DNA of 64,000 bases from Candidatus Methanoperedens nitratireducens (GTDB taxonomy: Archaea > Halobacteriota > Methanosarcinia > Methanosarcinales > Methanoperedenaceae). Below, one piece after another: positions 165-10,722 of this stretch. The number at the start of each line of letters is the position of its first letter. The first letter of the stretch is position 1. A model generated the notes under the pieces. It ran no database searches. It was not told the DNA's origin and saw only the letters and a program-made list of their open reading frames with translations. The translations under genes were made by a program, and so were the position numbers. The stretch is taken from positions 472,862 through 536,861 of the forward strand of contig NZ_JMIY01000002.1 of NCBI RefSeq assembly GCF_000685155.1. Reading direction: 5' to 3'.

Positions 165-228
165 AACAACGAACTGGTACGAACTTAAACGAACTCGGGC
201 TCTATAAGTTCATTTTGAGTTCGTTGTT
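165..228. repeat. Palindromic 10-bp-phased ACGAACT array (no gene inside)
   Basis: Three ACGAACT units start at 169, 179 and 189, exactly 10 bp apart. AGTTCAT (208) and AGTTCGT (218) follow on the other strand, again 10 bp apart. The outer ends AACAACGAACT (165-175) and AGTTCGTTGTT (218-228) are perfect 11-bp inverted repeats. The same units flank the GxxExxY gene at 8086-8115 and 8529-8559. The one-turn spacing suggests a protein binding repeatedly on one DNA face; that is inference. Confidence 0.7.
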
Positions 229-376: not shown

Positions 377-607
377 TTATGGCTCTTCAGTATATTTTTT
401 AATAACGAGACATTTATTTTCAGGGTCAATCCTGACAATTACTTCATCACCTGATTTAAAAGGAAAATTGCTATCTCTTGCGACTTCACTGGGAACATAA
501 ACAAAATACTTATCATATAATTTGCCCTTGCTCCTGCTTGGTCTGTTCATCAGCTTACTTTTTCCTTCAATCACTGTGGTATCACTGACCTGTGTAACAA
601 TGTCCAT
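377..607 (-). CDS. AbrB-like small DNA-binding protein, paralogue of the gene at 9373
   Basis: A 76-residue protein with a C-terminal stretch typical of the AbrB/SpoVT swapped-hairpin fold: YVPSEVARDSNFPF, then SGDEVIVRIDPE. It shares about half of its residues with the protein at 9373-9594 (EGK.K..NRP.R, YDK.F.Y.P..VA.DS.FPF). Such proteins bind palindromic DNA and are often antitoxins or self-repressors. A GGTGATT ribosome site lies just upstream of the ATG at 607. No toxin partner is evident. The family is likely; the role is unknown. Confidence 0.65.
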   Translation of the reverse strand: MDIVTQVSDTTVIEGKSKLMNRPSRSKGKLYDKYFVYVPSEVARDSNFPFKSGDEVIVRIDPENKCLVIKKYTEEP

Positions 608-1669: not shown

Positions 1670-4669
1670 TTAGTAGGTGCTGAAAGCAGGGTTTAATCTT
1701 TTATAAACTTTTTTCAGCATGTAATCTTTAACCACCTCTGCAACTACGTTATCATCCATTATCTTTATGAAAATCTCTTTATTTTGTTCCATTCTGTCTA
1801 TCAATTTATTTATAAAAACATCCTGAAATCCATATTTAAAATTATCAATAGTATTGATTTTAGCTTGCTTTGATAATGTTTCATCTGCCACAAGCTCTTC
1901 TTCTATCTGGTCAAAGAAAAGTTTATCCGCATCAGTAAGTGGTTTTCCAAATCTCTCATTAAATACCTTTATAATCTCAGAAAGTATGGCAAACTCTTCT
2001 TTGTCCTTTTTTGTACCAGCTTCAGTTGTTGGTTTTAGTCCACTCTCTCCGCCTTTTTCAAGAATAATACTTCCTTCACTAATTTTCTGAAGCCTGTAAT
2101 ATTCCAGAGCAACTTCATCATTCAATTTTAATTTCTCTGACATTACTTTCTTAGGAAGTTTGTTGAGCAGTAAACGTCCATATGAATAGAATTTCTCCAG
2201 TTCAGCATCTTGAAAAGGCATGATTTGTGATAGGAAAGAATAGAGACGCAGAAAAACAGTTAAAGTATGTTTAAAATCTTCCTGAACTTCCTCTTTTCCA
2301 ATGGCTTTGTAGCGGTCAACTGCTGGATCAATATAAGCATTTAATTGAGCAGGGTCCTTGCTGGTTTGAGAACCACTTTTTTTGAAAAATATATTACAAA
2401 AAGCATCGATTTCCGATTGCCAGAATATTTGCGTTGCTTCTAATTTTGATTTTAAATCATAAAGCTGGTTTGGGTCGGTGGTTTCAATAAGAGTTGTTTG
2501 CTCATAATAAGGTTGAAAAGAATCTAAAATTTCCTGCGTATCATTAACGAAATCAAGAATAAAGGTATCTTCCTTTCCTGGATAGATTCTATTCAAACGT
2601 GAGAGTGTTTGAACCGCTTTTACTCCTGATAGCTTTTTATCAACATACATTGTGTGAAGCAAAGGCTGGTCAAATCCTGTCTGGTATTTATCCGCAACCA
2701 ATAGCAGTTGATATTCGGTTGTATTAAATTTATCCGGAAGTTCCTTTTCACCAAAACCATTTATTTCAGATTCAGTATGAATGATTCCAGATTCATCTTT
2801 AAAAGCTGAAAAAGCAACAAGCGTTTTTATCTCTGTATATCCTTTTTCTTTTAGGTATCTATCAAATTCCTGCTTATAACGAACAACATGAGGGCGTGAA
2901 GCTGTAACTACCATAGCTTTGGCTTTTCCACCAATTTTCTTTATAGTGACCTGTCGGAAATGCTCAATGATAATTTCAGTTTTTTGAGCCAGGTTATGCG
3001 GATGAAGCGATATAAACCTTGCAATGGCTCTACTCGCTTTTTTCTTATTGATTTTAGGATCGTCTTCTATTTGCTTGGATAGTTTGAAAAAGGTTTTATA
3101 GGTTGTATAATTTTTTAATACGTCCATAATAAAACCTTCTTCTATTGCCTGACGCATTGAGTAAAGATGGAATGGAATCGGTTTATCTGTAATAGCATCT
3201 TTTACGCCAAAGACTTCTAACGTTTTGGGCTTTGGTGTAGCTGTAAATGCAAAGAAACTCAAATTCTTGTGCTGTCCTCTTGACAACATTGATTTTCTGA
3301 TTTCATCTTCCGCATCAGATTCAGTGTAAATTCTCTCTCTATCTTTTCTTGCTGCATCTTCCAGATTGCCTATGGTGAGAACCTCTTTCAATTTTCTTGA
3401 TGCCTCTCCACTTTGAGAGCTATGTGCCTCATCTACGATTACCGCATAATTTCTGGCAGGGAGCTGTCCGATTTTCTCTAAAACAAAAGGAAACTTCTGC
3501 AGGGTAGTTATGATAATATTAGTTCCTGAGCTCAGTGCTGCTGCCAGTTGATTGGAATCCTTATCAATTCTCTGAACCACGCCCTGTTTATGTTCAAATT
3601 GATAGATGGTATTCTGTAACTGCTGGTCTAACACCAGCCTGTCAGTGACTACAATCACAGAATCAAATACTCTTTTATCGTCTTTATCATGCAGGCTTGA
3701 TAAACGATAGGCGAGCCAGGCAATAGAATTACTCTTACCACTGCCTGCTGAATGCTCAATCAGGTAATTTTTTCCTGCTCCGTTTTTTCTTGCATCATCC
3801 TCCAGCTTTCGGACAACATCTAACTGATGGTAGCGCGGGAAAAGCAGGCTTTCCTGTTTGAAGGTTTTTCCGTCAAATTTGTATTCTTCCACCTGCAGAT
3901 GCAGAAAACGGCCTAATATGTCCATCCAGCTATCTTTTTCCCAGATATATTCCCACAGGTAGGATGTTTTATAACCATCTGGATTAGGCGGATTTCCTGC
4001 ACCCCTGTTATAGCCAAGATTAAAAGGAAGGTACTTTGTTCTTGACCCTTCAAGCTTCGTAGTCATATACACTTCATCAGGGTCAACCGCAAAGTGAACC
4101 AGGGCTCTTTTTTTGAACTGAAAAAGCAATTCTTTCGGGTCTCTATCCTCAATAAATTGCTCTTTAGCATCACTCACATCCTGTCCTGTAAATCGATTTT
4201 TTAACTCAACTGTTGCGACAGGCAGACCGTTAAGACCAAGAAGCATATCAACAGATCTTTCACTCTTCTGGCTGTATTTTAACTGCCTTGTTATGGTTAA
4301 CCTGTTAAGCCTGTATAACCTCTCTGCTTCTGGATTTAAGCCACTTGCAGGTTTAAAGTATGCCATCTTATAGCGAACACCATAATCAATAAAGCCATTT
4401 CTCAAAACATCGAGAGTGCCCCTGTTATCTAATTCTCTGGTTAAGCGCTGTAAAAGTTTAGATTCGGTATTTGAACCATGTATGGAAACTGATTTTTTCC
4501 AGGCTTCATGCTGGCTTTCTTGAAGAAAGGCAAAAATTGTTTTTGTATCAAGAGCCAATTCACGGTTGAAGTCAGCAGGATTTCCTTTAATATATCCACA
4601 TTTTTCAAGCAGGTGGCTTTCAATGGCTTCTTCAAAGGCTTTTTCGGTATGTATTTGAGTGAGCGCCAT
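1670..4669 (-). CDS. hsdR: Type I restriction enzyme, R subunit (HsdR)
   Basis: The 999-residue restriction and translocation subunit of a type I system. The N-terminal nuclease domain carries the PD-(D/E)xK pattern (D about 141, then VELKN near 154-158). An SF2 helicase follows, with Walker A SAGSGKSNS near 308, DEAHSSQSGE near 413 and FTATPKPKT near 476. The C-terminal part is the helical subunit-contact region. The length and motif order are normal, and no stop or frameshift is seen. It is the last gene of the hsdM-hsdS-hsdR operon; its ATG lies 2 bp after the hsdS stop. It would cleave unmodified DNA after ATP-driven translocation. Confidence 0.95.
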   Translation of the reverse strand: MALTQIHTEKAFEEAIESHLLEKCGYIKGNPADFNRELALDTKTIFAFLQESQHEAWKKSVSIHGSNTESKLLQRLTRELDNRGTLDVLRNGFIDYGVRYKMAYFKPASGLNPEAERLYRLNRLTITRQLKYSQKSERSVDMLLGLNGLPVATVELKNRFTGQDVSDAKEQFIEDRDPKELLFQFKKRALVHFAVDPDEVYMTTKLEGSRTKYLPFNLGYNRGAGNPPNPDGYKTSYLWEYIWEKDSWMDILGRFLHLQVEEYKFDGKTFKQESLLFPRYHQLDVVRKLEDDARKNGAGKNYLIEHSAGSGKSNSIAWLAYRLSSLHDKDDKRVFDSVIVVTDRLVLDQQLQNTIYQFEHKQGVVQRIDKDSNQLAAALSSGTNIIITTLQKFPFVLEKIGQLPARNYAVIVDEAHSSQSGEASRKLKEVLTIGNLEDAARKDRERIYTESDAEDEIRKSMLSRGQHKNLSFFAFTATPKPKTLEVFGVKDAITDKPIPFHLYSMRQAIEEGFIMDVLKNYTTYKTFFKLSKQIEDDPKINKKKASRAIARFISLHPHNLAQKTEIIIEHFRQVTIKKIGGKAKAMVVTASRPHVVRYKQEFDRYLKEKGYTEIKTLVAFSAFKDESGIIHTESEINGFGEKELPDKFNTTEYQLLLVADKYQTGFDQPLLHTMYVDKKLSGVKAVQTLSRLNRIYPGKEDTFILDFVNDTQEILDSFQPYYEQTTLIETTDPNQLYDLKSKLEATQIFWQSEIDAFCNIFFKKSGSQTSKDPAQLNAYIDPAVDRYKAIGKEEVQEDFKHTLTVFLRLYSFLSQIMPFQDAELEKFYSYGRLLLNKLPKKVMSEKLKLNDEVALEYYRLQKISEGSIILEKGGESGLKPTTEAGTKKDKEEFAILSEIIKVFNERFGKPLTDADKLFFDQIEEELVADETLSKQAKINTIDNFKYGFQDVFINKLIDRMEQNKEIFIKIMDDNVVAEVVKDYMLKKVYKRLNPAFSTY

Positions 4670-4671
4670 TT

Positions 4672-5982
4672 TTATATCGCCTCTCGGACATCAATTTTAC
4701 CTGTTACTACTTCTGAGATTAAGGCAGTTCGGTATTCTTGAAGTAGGGCAATTTCTTTTTCTATTCTGGAAATTGTATAGTCTGTTTTGACGGATTCAGA
4801 TTCAATAAACTTGACGATTTCTTGTTGTTCTTCAATTGAGGGAAAAGGAATAAGTAAGTTTCCAATAAAGTCCCAACTTGCTCTCGGCATTTTTGCACCG
4901 TAAGTTGAACTATTAACTTCATTTATAAAATCCTCTGATAAAACTCTATAATACACAAAATCTGATATCATTGATTTTGAAGGTCTTAATACCAATAATT
5001 CACTAACACACACTCCATTTGTATTGGCATTGTAAACTTTTGCCAAGTAAGGTCTTAATTTATTGAATAAAACATCCCCTTTTATGAATATTTTTGCTTC
5101 TCCTTCAAATGTGGTTTGTGAATCTAAATTGATTAATTTACCAGTATAACTCTCGATGTTTTCTAAAGCAATTTTTATCTCAGGCGATTCAGAATTACTT
5201 TTTTCATTAACCAAGGTTATTAAATACTTCAATCTCTTTACTTCCAAATGTTTCGGTACTTTCTCCAACCACTCAATGCCCGAATCTTTCATTGGCATAT
5301 CAGGGTTCAGACCCTTTGTTACTGCCTGATTGATAATGGCTGTGCGTTCTTCTTTGAGCAGCTCAATAAGCTTTTGTTCTTTCTCAATTAAAGTATCTAT
5401 TTTTTGGGTGCGGTCATCAAGGTAGCGGGCAATAGTATGTTGCTCCGAAAAAGGTGGTATTGTTATGGGGATATTTCGTAAAATTTCTGTATTAATAGAA
5501 TCCCTAGTTGAGCCTACAGATTTAAACTGTACAAATTCAGAGATTAAATTGGAACTAAAAATGTATACAGCGAAATGATTATATAAACTTGGATTTTTAA
5601 TGCGTATTCTCAGCATTTGCCCTGAAATCAACCATCCTTTTTCCCGCTCAGTAACTGAGGCAATACGTCCAATACTTCCAACACGACTAAAAACAATATC
5701 TCCAACTTGAAGGCGATACATTGATAAGCTTTCGGCTTTCTCTTTTGAAATCTTGGGTATATCAGAATCATCAATCATTAAATTATTAACGTTACGAATT
5801 AAAATCAACGGTATGCCCTCATTGACGTAATCACTGGCGTGAAGCTGAGCGCCGAAAGGTCCAGTTTGAACAACGTTAATATCATTACCAGCCAAGTGTT
5901 TCAGGCGATATAAATCCCAATGCTCTGGTATCTCCCCAATCCATTCTATATTAGACGGTTTATATTTATGATACGCTCTCAT
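4672..5982 (-). CDS. hsdS: Type I restriction-modification specificity subunit (HsdS)
   Basis: The 436-residue specificity subunit has two target-recognition domains, one near residues 1-160 opening with GEIPEHWDLYRLKHL and one near 225-385 opening with EWLEKVPKHLEVKRLKYL. Each is followed by a conserved helical spacer (SEQHTIARYLDDRTQKID and EEQQEIVKFIESESVKTD). The two halves read different parts of a split DNA target, which cannot be predicted here. The start overlaps the hsdM stop by one base (TAATG), so the two are translationally coupled. The gene is complete. Confidence 0.95.
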   Translation of the reverse strand: MRAYHKYKPSNIEWIGEIPEHWDLYRLKHLAGNDINVVQTGPFGAQLHASDYVNEGIPLILIRNVNNLMIDDSDIPKISKEKAESLSMYRLQVGDIVFSRVGSIGRIASVTEREKGWLISGQMLRIRIKNPSLYNHFAVYIFSSNLISEFVQFKSVGSTRDSINTEILRNIPITIPPFSEQHTIARYLDDRTQKIDTLIEKEQKLIELLKEERTAIINQAVTKGLNPDMPMKDSGIEWLEKVPKHLEVKRLKYLITLVNEKSNSESPEIKIALENIESYTGKLINLDSQTTFEGEAKIFIKGDVLFNKLRPYLAKVYNANTNGVCVSELLVLRPSKSMISDFVYYRVLSEDFINEVNSSTYGAKMPRASWDFIGNLLIPFPSIEEQQEIVKFIESESVKTDYTISRIEKEIALLQEYRTALISEVVTGKIDVREAI

Positions 5983-7700
5983 TATGCGATTACCTCTCTC
6001 AACAATCCATCAGTCTCTTTTTCCAGTGCCATAATATCCGCCCTTATTTCTGCAAGACTTCTCAATGGCTTATATTTATAAAAATACTTCGTAAAGTTAA
6101 TTTCATATCCCTTTTTTGTTTTACTGTTGTCTATCCAGGCATCAGGCACATGTGGCAATACCTCCCTCTCAAAATAGGTCTGTATCTCCTCCTTGAGTGG
6201 CACTCTTTCACTATCTCTTAAATTAGCGTCTGATTTGAGCTTACCCTTGCTGTCTTTTACAATATTACCGCTTTCATCTCTCAAAGGTCGATCAACTGTA
6301 ATTTGCCAGTAGCCAAAATCTTCATTGGCAAAAATCTTTGAGAACTCATTTTCCTTAAAATCACCATAGATTTTAGTGATTGTTTCAATATGACCTTCTC
6401 CGATCTCATTACGCTTATTACCCAGGCTTCTTGCCATTTTATTGTAAAGGCTAATGGCATTAATCAACTGGATTTTCCCTTTTCTTTCTCTGGTTTTTCG
6501 GTTAGTCACTATCCATATGTAGGTGAAAATGCCTGTGTTATAGAATAATTGCTCTGGCATCGCAACAATGGCTTCAAGCATATCATTTTCAATGATCCAT
6601 TTTCGGATCTCACTTTCCCCGCTTCCAGCACTGCCTGTAAACAGAGGCGACCCGTTGAAAACAATTCCTATTCTTGAGCCACCGTTTGCGGGTTTCATTT
6701 TGGAGATCATGTGCTGCAAAAACAAAAATGAACCATCGCTTATCCTTGGCAGTCCAGCGCCAAAACGCCCTCCAAAACCTCTTTTTTCATGTTCATCTTT
6801 GACCTGCTTCTCAACTTTCTTCCACTCAACGCCAAATGGCGGATTAGATAGCATATAATCAAATTTTTCGTTCTCTAAACCATCATTTGTAAACGAATTT
6901 CCGAATTTTATGTTAGAAGCGTTTTGTCCTTTGATGAGCATATCTGATTTACAGATTGCATAAGACTCAGGATTAACTTCCTGCCCGAACACTTCAAGTC
7001 TGGCATCGGGATTAAGCTCACGCAGGTATTCTTCTGCTATAGATAGCATACCGCCTGTTCCGCAGGCAGGGTCATATAGTGTTCTTACAATACCCTGTTT
7101 AGTCAGGATCTCTGTATCATTCACGAAAAGCAGATTAACCATCAGTCGGATTACTTCTCTTGGCGTGAAGTGCTCTCCTGCTGTCTCATTGGATAACTCA
7201 GAAAATCTCCTTATAAGTTCTTCAAAAATGTATCCCATCTCCAGATTGCTTACTTTATCAGGGTGCAGGTCAACTTCACCAGATCGCTTAACAATCATGT
7301 AAAGTAGATCTGCTTCATCCAGTTTCGCAATCTGTTCAGTGAAGCTAAAATAATCAATGATCTCTCTTGCACTTGCAGAGAAACCATTGATATAATTGTT
7401 CAGATTGGCAGCAATATTATCCGGGTCTGCTTTTAATTTCTCAAAATCAAATTTGCTTTTATTGTGGAAGTTGAAACCTGCAATATTATTAAGAACAGGG
7501 TCTATGTTCTGAATATTCATACTGGCGATTTTGGGTAGATAATCCAGAACTTTTTGTTTTGTAGGTTCTAACACACAATCCAATCGTCTTAAAACTGTAA
7601 GCGGTAGTATTACTTTGCCATAATCTGATTGCTTATAATCGCCTCGTAGAAGGTCAGCAATTTCCCAGATAAAATTAGCATGCTCCTTAACGTTTACCAT
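5982..7700 (-). CDS. hsdM: Type I restriction-modification methyltransferase subunit (HsdM)
   Basis: The 572-residue adenine-N6 methyltransferase subunit. The N-terminal helical HsdM domain (about 1-160) is followed by the SAM-binding motif DPACGTGGML (about 210) and the catalytic NPPFG motif (about 287) of N6-adenine methylases. It heads the operon. The ATG at 7700 is preceded by AAGGAG at good spacing. It forms M2S with HsdS for modification and adds HsdR for restriction. The AT-rich composition matches the rest of the island and suggests horizontal transfer. Confidence 0.95.
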   Translation of the reverse strand: MVNVKEHANFIWEIADLLRGDYKQSDYGKVILPLTVLRRLDCVLEPTKQKVLDYLPKIASMNIQNIDPVLNNIAGFNFHNKSKFDFEKLKADPDNIAANLNNYINGFSASAREIIDYFSFTEQIAKLDEADLLYMIVKRSGEVDLHPDKVSNLEMGYIFEELIRRFSELSNETAGEHFTPREVIRLMVNLLFVNDTEILTKQGIVRTLYDPACGTGGMLSIAEEYLRELNPDARLEVFGQEVNPESYAICKSDMLIKGQNASNIKFGNSFTNDGLENEKFDYMLSNPPFGVEWKKVEKQVKDEHEKRGFGGRFGAGLPRISDGSFLFLQHMISKMKPANGGSRIGIVFNGSPLFTGSAGSGESEIRKWIIENDMLEAIVAMPEQLFYNTGIFTYIWIVTNRKTRERKGKIQLINAISLYNKMARSLGNKRNEIGEGHIETITKIYGDFKENEFSKIFANEDFGYWQITVDRPLRDESGNIVKDSKGKLKSDANLRDSERVPLKEEIQTYFEREVLPHVPDAWIDNSKTKKGYEINFTKYFYKYKPLRSLAEIRADIMALEKETDGLLREVIA

Positions 7701-8133
7701 TTATCCGTTCTCCTTTTTAGATTAAATCCAGCAGGTTCTGAATCCAGCTTAAATCCTTTCTCTTACTAATATAAATTTCTGTCGTTTTATTGTATTTGAT
7801 CTATAGCGTCAAGATTAGCTTGGATTTTATAAATAATCATCAATAAATGATTTCCACACTTGTTTCTACCCCCAAAATGGATTGAAGAGCAGGTATCAAT
7901 TCGCGGGATGGACTAGTCTTCTACAAAATTTTTATGATATTTGTTAAAATATCAAACACTTTCACTCTGCTTGGCATTACTAAATAAGATTTAGAGTTAA
8001 TATTGTATCAGATACACGTCTGTAGCATTCGTTTTCAATTGAAAATGAAATAATACTGGCCTGAACTGGAAATCTCTGATAAAAGAGTTCGTTCAGTTCG
8101 TTTTAGTTCGTTGTTTATCTTGCACAGAGGGAT
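7701..8133. other. Intergenic region between hsdM and the GxxExxY gene
   Basis: No gene is seen. It should hold the hsdM promoter; an AT-rich TATA candidate reading on the minus strand lies near 7768-7778. A perfect 14-bp palindrome TTTTCAATTGAAAA is at 8032-8045. The left phased array of the GxxExxY gene is at 8086-8115. Confidence 0.45.
8086..8115 (-). repeat. Left phased AGTTCGT array flanking the GxxExxY gene
   Basis: AGTTCGT units start at 8086, 8095 and 8105, spaced 9-10 bp, and end in AGTTCGTTGTT (8105-8115). The array is the inverse complement of the array downstream of the gene (8529-8559), so the gene sits between inverted phased repeats. The last unit ends 18 bp before the start codon. 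Confidence 0.75.
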
Positions 8134-8517
8134 ATGATGGAATTAATATATAAACAAGAGTTTTATGACATTAAATCAGCCTGTATAGCCATAAAAATTG
8201 AACTTGGTCTTGGATTCTTAGAAAAGGTATACGAAAACGCTCTAAAAATTGAACTTGAAGATAGAGGTTTCATAGTCAAGCAACAATTCCCGATTCAAGT
8301 TACTTATAAAAAAAATGTCGTCGGCGACTACTATGCAGATTTATATATTGTAGATAAAATAATCATTGAGATAAAGGCTGTGTACGAAATAACAAGCATA
8401 CACAAAGCACAAGTTTTGAATTATCTGAAAGCAACAGGGATTAAACTTGGAGTTTTAATTAACTTTAGCAGAGAAAGAAATACAGTGGACATTGAACGGA
8501 TACCAAATTTAATTTAA
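8134..8517 (+). CDS. GxxExxY family protein (PD-(D/E)xK-like fold)
   Basis: A 127-residue protein with the family signature GFLEKVY (residues 27-33). A probable nuclease-fold core follows: D69 in YYADLYIV, then IIEIKAV with E79 and K81, and a conserved KAQVLNYL near 91-98. This arrangement is typical of PD-(D/E)xK nucleases, but family function is not established. A GAGGG ribosome site precedes ATG 8134. The gene stands alone between inverted 10-bp-phased ACGAACT arrays, an architecture that suggests a self-contained genetic unit. Confidence 0.85.
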   Translation: MMELIYKQEFYDIKSACIAIKIELGLGFLEKVYENALKIELEDRGFIVKQQFPIQVTYKKNVVGDYYADLYIVDKIIIEIKAVYEITSIHKAQVLNYLKATGIKLGVLINFSRERNTVDIERIPNLI

Positions 8518-8528
8518 AATAATAAAAA

Positions 8529-8559
8529 AACAACGAACTAATACGAACTGTTACGAACT
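8529..8559 (+). repeat. Right phased ACGAACT array flanking the GxxExxY gene
   Basis: ACGAACT units start at 8533, 8543 and 8553, exactly 10 bp apart, beginning with AACAACGAACT (8529-8539). They mirror the left array at 8086-8115 and match the left half of the solo array at 165-195. The gene's stop codon is 12 bp before the array. Confidence 0.75.
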
Positions 8560-8700
8560 CCGGTTGATTTTGTTATCAGTTAAGATTGTTTAATTTAATA
8601 TATCGAAAAAATATTTGTCTGAAAGTCATGTTATACTTCGATATATCTATTTTGTCACCTTGCTGATTTTCCAGATAAAGTATACGTTCATTTATGTGTG

Positions 8701-8716
8701 TAGTGTATATACACTA
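8701..8716. promoter_or_regulatory. Perfect 16-bp palindrome upstream of an orphan ribosome site
   Basis: TAGTGTATATACACTA is a perfect palindrome containing a TATA-like core. About 15 bp later comes GAGGAGGAGG (8732-8741), an unusually strong ribosome-binding sequence, followed by TTG at 8749. The frame that opens there runs into the tRNA-Ser fragment and does not look like a real protein, so this may be the front end of a lost gene. Confidence 0.4.
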
Positions 8717-8810
8717 TACAACCTTTTGCCTTAGAGGAGGAGGCTATATTGGGACGGAGCCTAAGCCTTTTTCATAAAAAAATAAGGTGGTATTTTTTAA
8801 AAATCCAAAA

Positions 8811-8874
8811 AATCACAACGCTGAGGGGGAGATTCGAACTCCCGAGGGGCAAAGCCCCACAAGCTTTCAAGGCT
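8811..8874 (-). repeat. tRNA-Ser 3'-half fragment, candidate attachment site
   Basis: This stretch matches 9597-9660 (the 3' part of tRNA-Ser and about 8 bp beyond its 3' end) over 64 bp with four mismatches, in the same orientation, and stops near the anticodon loop. The T arm and the variable arm are intact, the 5' half is absent. Such partial tRNA copies are the typical product of integration by tyrosine recombinases at the 3' end of tRNA genes. No integrase gene is present in the window. Confidence 0.75.
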
Positions 8875-8959
8875 GGGGAAAAATCTCTTAAAACCCATCT
8901 TTCAATAATTCAATGTCTCAGTAGCTCTTTCCCATGATGCTTTCAGTAAATTATAAACC

Positions 8960-9247
8960 CTAGATGAACACGGATGAACGCAGATACGATGCAGCAAATC
9001 TGCGTTCATCTGCGTCTATCTGCGGTTTCTTATTCTTATCCTGCTTGGTTTTTTCTTCATATGCTATTATGGTTCTGCAGTGTGGCAAAAAAATGAAATA
9101 CATTGTCTTGCCTTCAAGCCCTTCTCCTTCTTTTTGTACGAACATAGGTATGTCGTAGTGCGCAACCAGTCTCTCCAAGACCTCCTTTTCTGCTATTATT
9201 GCATCTTTTTGTATATTGGGTGCATTGATTACCTGGTATTCTGCCAT
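8960..9247 (-). CDS. Small protein of unknown function with repeat-encoded tail
   Basis: 95 residues starting MAEYQVINAPNIQKDAIIAE. I chose ATG 9247 because GGTGAG stands just upstream; the longer frame to 9319 would run through the promoter and palindrome. The C-terminal 20 or so residues (from PQIDADERRFAASYLR on) are simply the translation of the 10-bp-phased palindrome at 8962-9021, so the original C-terminus was probably replaced when that repeat arrived. It is divergent from the AbrB-like gene. Function unknown. Confidence 0.5.
   Translation of the reverse strand: MAEYQVINAPNIQKDAIIAEKEVLERLVAHYDIPMFVQKEGEGLEGKTMYFIFLPHCRTIIAYEEKTKQDKNKKPQIDADERRFAASYLRSSVFI
8962..9021. repeat. 10-bp-phased GATGAAC/ATCTGCG palindrome
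   Basis: Two 24-bp arms, 8962-8985 and 8998-9021, are inverted repeats with about four mismatches and a 12-bp loop. GATGAAC recurs at 8963 and 8973, and ATCTGCG at 8998, 9008 and 9018, so both arms have a 10-bp period. The design equals the ACGAACT arrays but the unit differs. It lies inside the 3' end of the gene at 8960-9247. Confidence 0.75.
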
Positions 9248-9266
9248 GTTTCTCACCGCTGATGTT

Positions 9267-9291
9267 GTGTTAGCCGTGCGTGTGCTAACAC
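9267..9291. promoter_or_regulatory. Operator-like inverted repeat over a predicted transcription start
   Basis: GTGTTAGC (9267-9274) and GCTAACAC (9284-9291) are perfect inverted arms around a 9-bp centre. They lie 10-35 bp downstream of the minus-strand TATA box at 9300-9307, so they would cover the transcription start of the gene at 8960-9247. The neighbouring AbrB-like protein is the obvious candidate to bind here. Confidence 0.5.
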
Positions 9292-9299
9292 ACTTAATG

Positions 9300-9307
9300 T
9301 ATTTATA
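9300..9307 (-). promoter_or_regulatory. TATA box for the gene at 8960-9247
   Basis: Reads TATAAATA on the minus strand, about 53 bp before the chosen start codon at 9247, preceded by an A-rich stretch. The inverted repeat 9267-9291 follows immediately. Confidence 0.5.
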
Positions 9308-9372
9308 TTTTGTGCGCACACAATAGGCTTATTATATGTGGCTCGATAAGATAAATATGGGATGTGATAACA

Positions 9373-9594
9373 ATGTGTGATGTGTTAGAGGGCAAAGGAA
9401 AAATTGTAAACCGTCCAACCAGGACGCGCAAGGAAACGTATGACAAATTTTTTTGCTATATACCAACCAACGTGGCAAAGGACAGCGGATTTCCCTTCGA
9501 GGAGGGCGAAGACGTGCTTGTAGTGGTAGACCCTGCCCGCAAAGAGGTAATTCTGAGAAAGCTGCCTTCTCGTGAAGATGTTGAGAAGACTTAA
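9373..9594 (+). CDS. AbrB-like small DNA-binding protein, paralogue of the gene at 377
   Basis: About 73 residues; the core YIPTNVAKDSGFPF then EGEDVLVVVDP corresponds to the AbrB-like half-barrel and closely matches the paralogue at 377-607. ATG 9373 is preferred because GGATGTGA just upstream can serve as a ribosome site; a GTG at 9364 lies inside that site. A TATA-like ATTATATG stands near 9330. It is divergent from the small gene at 8960-9247, so it may control the shared intergenic region. Its stop codon touches the tRNA-Ser attachment repeat. Confidence 0.65.
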   Translation: MCDVLEGKGKIVNRPTRTRKETYDKFFCYIPTNVAKDSGFPFEEGEDVLVVVDPARKEVILRKLPSREDVEKT

Positions 9595-9604
9595 TAAATC
9601 ATAA

Positions 9605-9688
9605 CGCCGAGGGGGAGATTCGAACTCCCGCGGGGCAAAGCCCCACAAGCTTTCCAGGCTTGCGCCTTAGCCGCTAGACTACCTCGGC
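9605..9688 (-). tRNA. tRNA-Ser (anticodon GGA)
   Basis: An 84-nt type II tRNA on the minus strand. The acceptor arm is GCCGAGG/CCTCGGC with discriminator G. The anticodon stem CAAGC/GCTTG encloses the loop CTGGAAA, giving anticodon GGA. It has a long variable arm (GGGGCTTTGCCCC) and the T-arm GGGAGTTCGAATCTCCC. No CCA is encoded and there is no intron. A partial copy of its 3' half lies at 8811-8874. Confidence 0.97.
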
Positions 9689-9726
9689 ATAATCGGCATA
9701 CGCCCTTATAATGTACCCGATGGCTT

Positions 9727-10722
9727 TTATTCTTTTGCCTTCCACCCTTTCGGATACGTCCCCGGCTCCAGAAGCACCCTGTCAGTACTTACTACGATCC
9801 CTGTAGCCGCTTTTAAGATCTCAATGGATCTCATCTGCGCCCTGCCGAAAGATACCGCCTCCCCTTTCTGTGTAAAGACAGCCACAGGATCTCCTCTCTC
9901 GATCCCGCTCTCAAGTGTGAGCACACCGGCAGCAGCCAGACCTGCGCCATGGCAGACCGCATCAACCGCGCTATCGCGTATCACTATCTTAGGAAGGTGA
10001 GACAGCCCGACCTCCATTGGAAGTATAACTTCTCTCAACAACTCTTCATTGCTGTTCTCCTTCCACTCAACATACGCATCTTTAAGATCGTGAAGTGTGA
10101 CCATCGTTTTATCCTCACGAAAAGGACCGCTCTTCGTGCGGCGCAGCTCCTGCATATGTGCGCCTGTGCCGAGTGCTAACCCCATATCATGGCATAATTT
10201 CCTGATATACGTCCCGGCCTCACACCCGACCTTAAAAAGGACATTCTTATCCTCGATCTCAAGCAGCTCAAGATAATATATGTTCCTTATCCTTGTTTCC
10301 CGTTTCACTGCTGATTTAATAGAGGGCATCTGGTATATCTCGCCTGTGAACTCACTAAAAATTCGTTTTATCTCCCTCTCAGGCACTTCGGTATGGAGTT
10401 TCATAAGGCAGACGTATTCCTTGCCTGCCGTAAGGAGCGCATCCACAGCTTTTGTCGCATCGCCCAGCATAATCGGAAGAAGCCCTGTCACTCCCGGATC
10501 AAGCGTACCGCTGTGCCCTGCTTTATCAATCTCAAGGATCTTTTTCACCCATGATGTGACCTCGTGGCTTGTCGGCCCCGCAGGTTTATCAAGATTTATC
10601 ACTCCTTTCTGGATATATTCCTGTATCGGCCGATCTATCGGTCTTTTACCAGATCTCTCATCAGTAGTATCCTCTGATTTTACCAGGGTCTCTCTTTTTC
10701 TCTCAGAAGGCAGCAGGTTCAT
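9727..10722 (-). CDS. cbf5: tRNA/rRNA pseudouridine synthase Cbf5 (TruB family)
   Basis: The 331-residue catalytic subunit of archaeal H/ACA ribonucleoproteins, which can also act on tRNA U55. The catalytic motif GHSGTLDPG carries Asp75. The preceding VINLDKPAGPTSHEV and the tail from about residue 255, which resembles a PUA domain, are typical. The ATG overlaps the cmk stop by 4 bp. It belongs to the conserved archaeal adk-DUF106-cmk-cbf5 group; the ribosomal protein L14e gene often found just before cbf5 is absent here. Confidence 0.93.
   Translation of the reverse strand: MNLLPSERKRETLVKSEDTTDERSGKRPIDRPIQEYIQKGVINLDKPAGPTSHEVTSWVKKILEIDKAGHSGTLDPGVTGLLPIMLGDATKAVDALLTAGKEYVCLMKLHTEVPEREIKRIFSEFTGEIYQMPSIKSAVKRETRIRNIYYLELLEIEDKNVLFKVGCEAGTYIRKLCHDMGLALGTGAHMQELRRTKSGPFREDKTMVTLHDLKDAYVEWKENSNEELLREVILPMEVGLSHLPKIVIRDSAVDAVCHGAGLAAAGVLTLESGIERGDPVAVFTQKGEAVSFGRAQMRSIEILKAATGIVVSTDRVLLEPGTYPKGWKAKE

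Follow-up and report, generated by a model that had tools for sequence, protein, structure and literature searches.

The window, i.e. the whole 64-kb stretch of DNA that was analysed, contains a small GxxExxY gene placed between two arrays of a repeated 7-bp unit (Table 1). The three AGTTCGT units before the gene and the three ACGAACT units after it, in inverted orientation, lie exactly where the original prediction had placed them, and the phasing of about 10 bp that it had claimed was measured as 9 and 10 bp in the left array and 10 and 10 bp in the right one. The two arms form a 23-nt inverted repeat that is 96% complementary. ACGAACT occurs 15 times in the window as compared to 4.6 expected occurrences (maximum 11 in 100 shuffles). 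Triplets of identical 7-mers at a spacing of 9-11 bp are present at four sites in the 64 kb (169, 8086, 8533 and 8998), of which the one at 8998 consists of a different unit and the other three of ACGAACT. Apart from flanking the gene, these arrays make up a gene-less hairpin at 165-228, which the original prediction had not mentioned. The arrays of the window gene are inside-out relative to the gene-less ACGAACT hairpins, i.e. they represent an atypical form.

Table 1. Features of the GxxExxY locus and related repeats (window coordinates).
Feature	Position	Strand	Description
Left array	8086..8111	-	Three ACGAACT units on the minus strand (AGTTCGT at 8086, 8095, 8105)
GxxExxY / PDDEXK_3 gene	8134..8517	+	127 aa, intact; predicted PD-(D/E)XK nuclease
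Right array	8533..8559	+	Three ACGAACT units at 8533, 8543, 8553
Gene-less hairpin, ACGAACT unit	165..228	+	Three plus-strand units, loop, minus-strand units; family A member
Larger carrier holding gene and arrays	7801..8808	+	Right end lost in the window copy
Left terminal inverted repeat of carrier	7801..7822	+	CTATAGCGTCAAGATTAGCTTG; other copies begin CCATAGCG

The window protein scores 127 bits against both TIGR04256 and PF13366 (cut-offs 35 and 22, respectively). The sole Pfam/NCBIfam match of the gene is to a PD-(D/E)XK family and not to a Y1 (HUH) transposase. Sixteen columns, including D69, E79 and K81, are invariant in 62 GxxExxY proteins. The AlphaFold2 model of the window protein has the PD-(D/E)XK nuclease fold (pLDDT 94.6). 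Its best neighbours among the solved structures are SSO0001 and the lambda-type exonucleases, with modest TM-scores, and the best viral models include the PD-(D/E)XK nuclease of Halogranum tailed virus 1; tRNA splicing endonucleases are found among the weak structural matches, and the neighbours are mainly DNA nucleases. A sequence search against the solved structures gave no meaningful match. GxxExxY is confidently predicted to be a PD-(D/E)XK nuclease with intact catalytic residues. The dN/dS values are about 0.08-0.17 in the measurable pairs, which indicates purifying selection.

GxxExxY genes occur in many phyla, and no function has been assigned to them. When 84,980 species genomes were scanned, 80 GxxExxY loci were obtained, selected by protein similarity and not by the presence of arrays. 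Inverted repeats were detected by local alignment of the upstream flank with the reverse-complemented downstream flank (threshold score 14). Flanking inverted repeats above this threshold were found at 64 of 77 loci from many phyla, as compared to 11 of 959 shifted windows, and a strict test that accepts only exact phased units was positive for 22 of 78 loci, as compared to 2 of 1447 shifted windows and none of 1560 shuffles. The full-length array pairs that were fetched from other genomes turned out to be the original query loci and add no independent count. Most flanking arrays have about three units per side with a period of 9-10 bp, the best self-match lag being 10 bp at 38 and 9 bp at 13 of the 64 loci (51 together). 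The median gap between array and gene is 31 bp on the side of the start codon and 11 bp on the side of the stop codon. The unit varies by locus and includes CACGAAT, CGCAGAT, CACAGAT, CACGAAA, CGCCGAT, CAGGGGA and CAGAATT. In other words, inverted flanks with a period of about 10 bp, which the original prediction had proposed to look for across GxxExxY genes, are general, and their sequence is specific to the locus. No earlier description of such arrays was found in the literature searched, most of which lay outside subscription journals and preprints; two papers in it name GxxExxY, and the array strings appear in none. We note that GxxExxY genes are rare on plasmids (8/72,556), and no homologue was found in phages. 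In three species (L263, L264 and L265) GxxExxY lies in collinear surroundings and arrays were undetected; these are possibly old or domesticated copies.

The genomic controls gave two different pictures. ParE toxin genes, taken from 26 of the same genomes, have no flanking inverted arrays (0/29), whereas S23 genes (PF05635) of the same genomes have such arrays in 22 of 27 cases, and 17 of these 22 have a period of 7 bp (loci L182-L211; an example is ATTAGTCATTGGTCATTAGTCATTGGTCA in L194). The layout is therefore common to two small gene families that are unrelated to each other and differ in period, and it is missing from a third (ParE). PF05635 has no match in the window genome. The heptamers linked to S23 presumably resemble the cyanobacterial STRR heptanucleotide repeats. 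The latter are also short, tandem-like and dispersed like the GxxExxY arrays, but their period is 7 bp instead of 9-10 bp and they have no connection to GxxExxY.

These controls bear on the possibility that the gene landed by coincidence among the repeats of repeat-rich genomes. Some genomes do abound in arrays (274 CACGAAT pairs in G023), but the shifted windows (11/959 and 2/1447), the shuffles (0/1560) and the ParE genes (0/29) contradict it, and so does the fact that the unit follows the protein lineage (see below). We find coincidence hardly credible. The original prediction had also named, as one outcome that would speak against it, arrays that are equally common beside unrelated genes. 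This was borne out by half. In the window genome arrays are far commoner without a gene than beside GxxExxY, but the copies in question are gene-less hairpins that bracket no other genes, and ParE genes have none; S23 is the exception, with its own period of 7 bp.

The S23 family is known from the intervening sequences (IVS) of 23S rRNA. The IVS of Coxiella is a 428-nt selfish element that carries an S23 ORF and ends in a stem of 28 bp, which RNase III cleaves (PMC4990558). The resemblance to the GxxExxY element is that both are small and have a single small ORF between terminal inverted repeats. The differences are that the IVS is located in rRNA and removed at the RNA level, and that its S23 protein is an unrelated four-helix bundle. 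The window gene belongs to PF13366 and not to the S23 / IVP proteins, and no rRNA match, only a tRNA, was found at window positions 7600-9800.

An action at the RNA level, as for the IVS, is conceivable: the arms would pair in the transcript, the resulting stem would be the substrate of the protein or of RNase III, and excision from the RNA would make the insertion tolerable. In the RNA structure prediction the arms of the window locus are indeed paired (-100.8 kcal/mol, z -2.44), and S23 genes share the inverted-array layout. On the other hand, a stem has no need for units that repeat within each arm, the spacing of the two window arms is unequal (9+10 versus 10+10 bp), and the unit cores match between the arms to 91% as compared to 76% for the spacers, a difference that is partly biased by the local alignment. 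The structural neighbours of the protein, being mainly DNA nucleases, point in the same direction. We regard an RNA-level element as rather unlikely.

The repeats are conspicuously dispersed in the window genome. Its 3.2 Mb contain 103 exact ACGAACT-NNN-ACGAACT pairs, as compared to none of the reversed control, and most ACGAACT copies belong to gene-less hairpins that form two dispersed families (A and B). Family B is 157-158 bp long, its ends are sharp and its left flank is rich in T; its loci (L098, L105, L112 and others) have no target duplication. It is reminiscent of IS200/IS605-type derivatives, a family name that we only suggest. Family A elements are longer and are often enclosed by another phased hairpin, whose units are CACAGAG or CGCAAAG. 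The family A hairpin of the window is apparently an example, as it is located within an outer CACAGAG-type array (CACAGAG...CTCTGTG, positions 64-284); such nesting is common genome-wide. A second gene-less phased hairpin of the window is found about 400 bp downstream (8966-9024) with the unit CGCAGAT/CACGGAT, and a CGCAGAT array also adjoins a GxxExxY fragment elsewhere in the window genome (L015). The gene-less elements were also considered as deletion derivatives of the gene, which was rejected, as their interiors are unrelated to the gene and often contain nested arrays.

GxxExxY itself is present in the window genome in two intact and two broken copies, all flanked by arrays, and in two further short fragments elsewhere. 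The possibility that the arrays are the exact ends of the copied unit was rejected for this genome, as the homology extends about 300 bp further, to the ends of a larger carrier. The two intact carrier copies are 1040 and 1092 bp long, with inverted termini of about 22 bp that begin CCATAGCGTCAAG, and have 8-bp target duplications, CTATTTAT and ATAAACTG. The carrier block in the window is 94.8% identical to the C5 copy and retains the left end only (7801). Having both inverted termini and a target duplication, the carrier does look like a non-autonomous TIR element. Since the copies of this genome ride inside the carrier, the arrays cannot be held solely responsible for their local spread, and the spread within the window genome may be due to carriers.

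A close relative (G027, 95% identical) has 7 ACGAACT pairs as compared to 107 in the window genome. The one site compared in this relative was rejected as a clean empty site, as a different hairpin (CACGGAT) occupies the same outer element: the relative has the CACGGAT hairpin and the window genome the ACGAACT hairpin within a shared outer element (L242:1830-2300 and L245:9080-9420). In G027 (L256 and L260) the left array and its outer flank are also present without the gene.

Dispersal of the flanking unit is also seen in other genomes. Genomes with CACGAAT beside GxxExxY have 11-274 phased CACGAAT pairs, the highest number being that of G023, while all of the other 19 genomes have 7 or fewer. 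The separation is less sharp for CGCAGAT (13-47 pairs in the matched genomes, 9-60 in several unmatched ones) and for CACGAAA (20, 31 and, in G005, 1 pair in the matched genomes, 23 in one unmatched genome). In most cases the unit that flanks the gene is also scattered over the same genome as a repeat, mostly with no gene beside it. The clearest evidence that the array-gene-array block itself is the unit of copying was found in G030. Two gene copies at unrelated sites of this genome are 89% identical over 448 bp, and their homology starts about 16 bp outside the left array and ends in the right array. Two gene-less hairpins of G030 carry the same outer ends as the gene copies, and their interiors are not shared.

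It could be argued that the arrays are operators or insulators for the autoregulation of GxxExxY, dispersed by other mobile elements that captured an array, with no involvement of the nuclease. The upstream arrays are indeed near the start codon, and the arrays of the window genome are located in a TIR carrier with 8-bp duplications or belong to families A and B that have ends of their own. However, an operator needs no inverted copy past the stop codon, and the downstream array is just as regular as the upstream one. Moreover, no such carrier was noticed outside the window genome, and the G030 copies end near the arrays. A purely regulatory role is, in our opinion, quite unlikely.

ACGAACT arrays are present in all 31 genomes of the window genus, and there is no clear correlation between the number of arrays and the presence of an intact gene. 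G026 has 77 array pairs with a GxxExxY fragment only, and G038, G046 and G053 have 9-10 array pairs each and no GxxExxY. As the arrays persist in congeners that lack an intact gene, current mobilisation in trans is not required. The presence in every genome of the genus, together with the purifying selection on the protein, would also fit a host nuclease that guards or maintains the dispersed palindromic repeats and is not selfish. The loci L263-L265, which keep the gene in collinear surroundings with arrays undetected, and the ORFs reading as a type I restriction system that adjoin the window copy can be listed on the same side. A host function is at odds with the patchy copy number, the broken copies and the fragments, and the comparison with known defence families (PADLOC) gave only weak Cas4-like scores (best E=0.002 to Cas4b). 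We consider a host function very improbable. The original prediction had left the choice between a selfish and a defensive unit; the dispersed repeats and the copies with shared ends favour the former, and the weak PADLOC scores speak against the latter.

The relationship between the unit and the protein was analysed at two levels. Among loci of different phyla, those with higher protein identity also tend to have more similar arrays (r=0.34; the highest value in 2000 permutations was 0.13). Within the window genus, the four classes of unit follow the protein clades and need 3 changes on the protein tree, which is the minimum, as compared to 7.6 changes expected by label shuffle (p=0.0002). 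Both the permutations and the label shuffles ignore relatedness. Two genomes harbour two paralogues that fall in different clades, so the host does not explain the pattern. A unit that follows the protein lineage is expected if GxxExxY recognises the unit. Taken alone, the covariation establishes co-inheritance and not binding.

The REPIN-RAYT system is similar in that a nuclease gene lies between inverted palindromic repeats, that these repeats are scattered over the rest of its genome, mostly with no gene beside them, and that the repeat family matches the nuclease lineage. For GxxExxY, dispersal of the flanking repeats as inverted pairs within the same genome was indeed found, with the exception of G005. 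The parts are nevertheless unrelated. RAYT belongs to the Y1 transposases and is a distant relative of IS200/IS605, and each RAYT was described as single-copy (PMC3116915), whereas GxxExxY is a predicted PD-(D/E)XK protein that can be multi-copy in one genome. Unlike REPINs, the GxxExxY arrays consist of about three 7-bp units at 9-10 bp and their sequence is widely variable. Inverted termini, and gene-bearing and gene-less forms with shared ends, are also known from IS elements and MITEs. In contrast to these, no transposase domain was found in the array-gene-array block, and the arrays are not bordered by a target duplication, in other phyla included (the repeats at the edges average 3.17, as compared to 3.12 in permuted data); no clean empty site was found for it either. 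Unlike those of MITEs, the gene-less forms have interiors unrelated to the gene. By analogy, the GxxExxY element appears to work like REPIN-RAYT and resembles the IVS in size and layout, and it is a member of neither.

The architecture and the link between gene and unit are well supported. Given the dispersed repeats of the same unit and the two copies with shared ends, the best single explanation is a minimal single-gene selfish element, array-GxxExxY-array, with MITE-like derivatives, and the balance leans somewhat in its favour. Such an element would carry at each end a 7-bp unit in about three copies, with a spacing of 9-10 bp. The nuclease would be the cognate protein of the unit and would most likely bind the repeated units as a small oligomer, sitting on one face of the DNA and pairing the two inverted arms. 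It may then cut or nick at the array ends or in the hairpin, and host repair may place a copy of the unit at another site, often within or next to another array hairpin. The phased hairpins that have this unit but no gene would be its non-autonomous relatives, in the manner of MITEs or REPINs. Within the window genome, the larger TIR carrier and the two dispersed repeat families have picked up the unit as well. Here, binding, cutting and mobilisation by the GxxExxY protein are what we infer from these patterns.

A broader proposal is that GxxExxY and S23 represent an undescribed class of minimal selfish elements, in which one small gene acting on nucleic acid is placed between inverted short-period arrays. 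Each protein family would determine its own period (9-10 bp for GxxExxY, 7 bp for S23), the unit would co-evolve with the protein, and the class would seed much of the dispersed palindromic content of many prokaryotes. We put this forward tentatively, as it is slightly more apt to fail than to hold. The parallel case of S23 would widen the gene-between-arrays layout to a general principle. Should the nuclease prove to target its own array, the function of GxxExxY would become directly testable, the dispersed palindromes of many genomes would have a source, and the lineage-specific units would be a natural code that links protein residues to DNA sequence.

Finally, a few features of the neighbourhood can be mentioned. 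The element is directly adjoined by what reads, from the translations, as a type I restriction-modification operon (HsdR, HsdS and HsdM-like, window 1670-7700). A partial tRNA-Ser-like copy (8815-8880) begins at the truncation of the carrier and an intact tRNA-Ser is located at 9604-9689; together the two look like an integration footprint. The region is flanked by two similar 76-aa ORFs, at 377-607 (-) and 9364-9594 (+), of which the former has a sub-threshold MazE/AbrB-like match.
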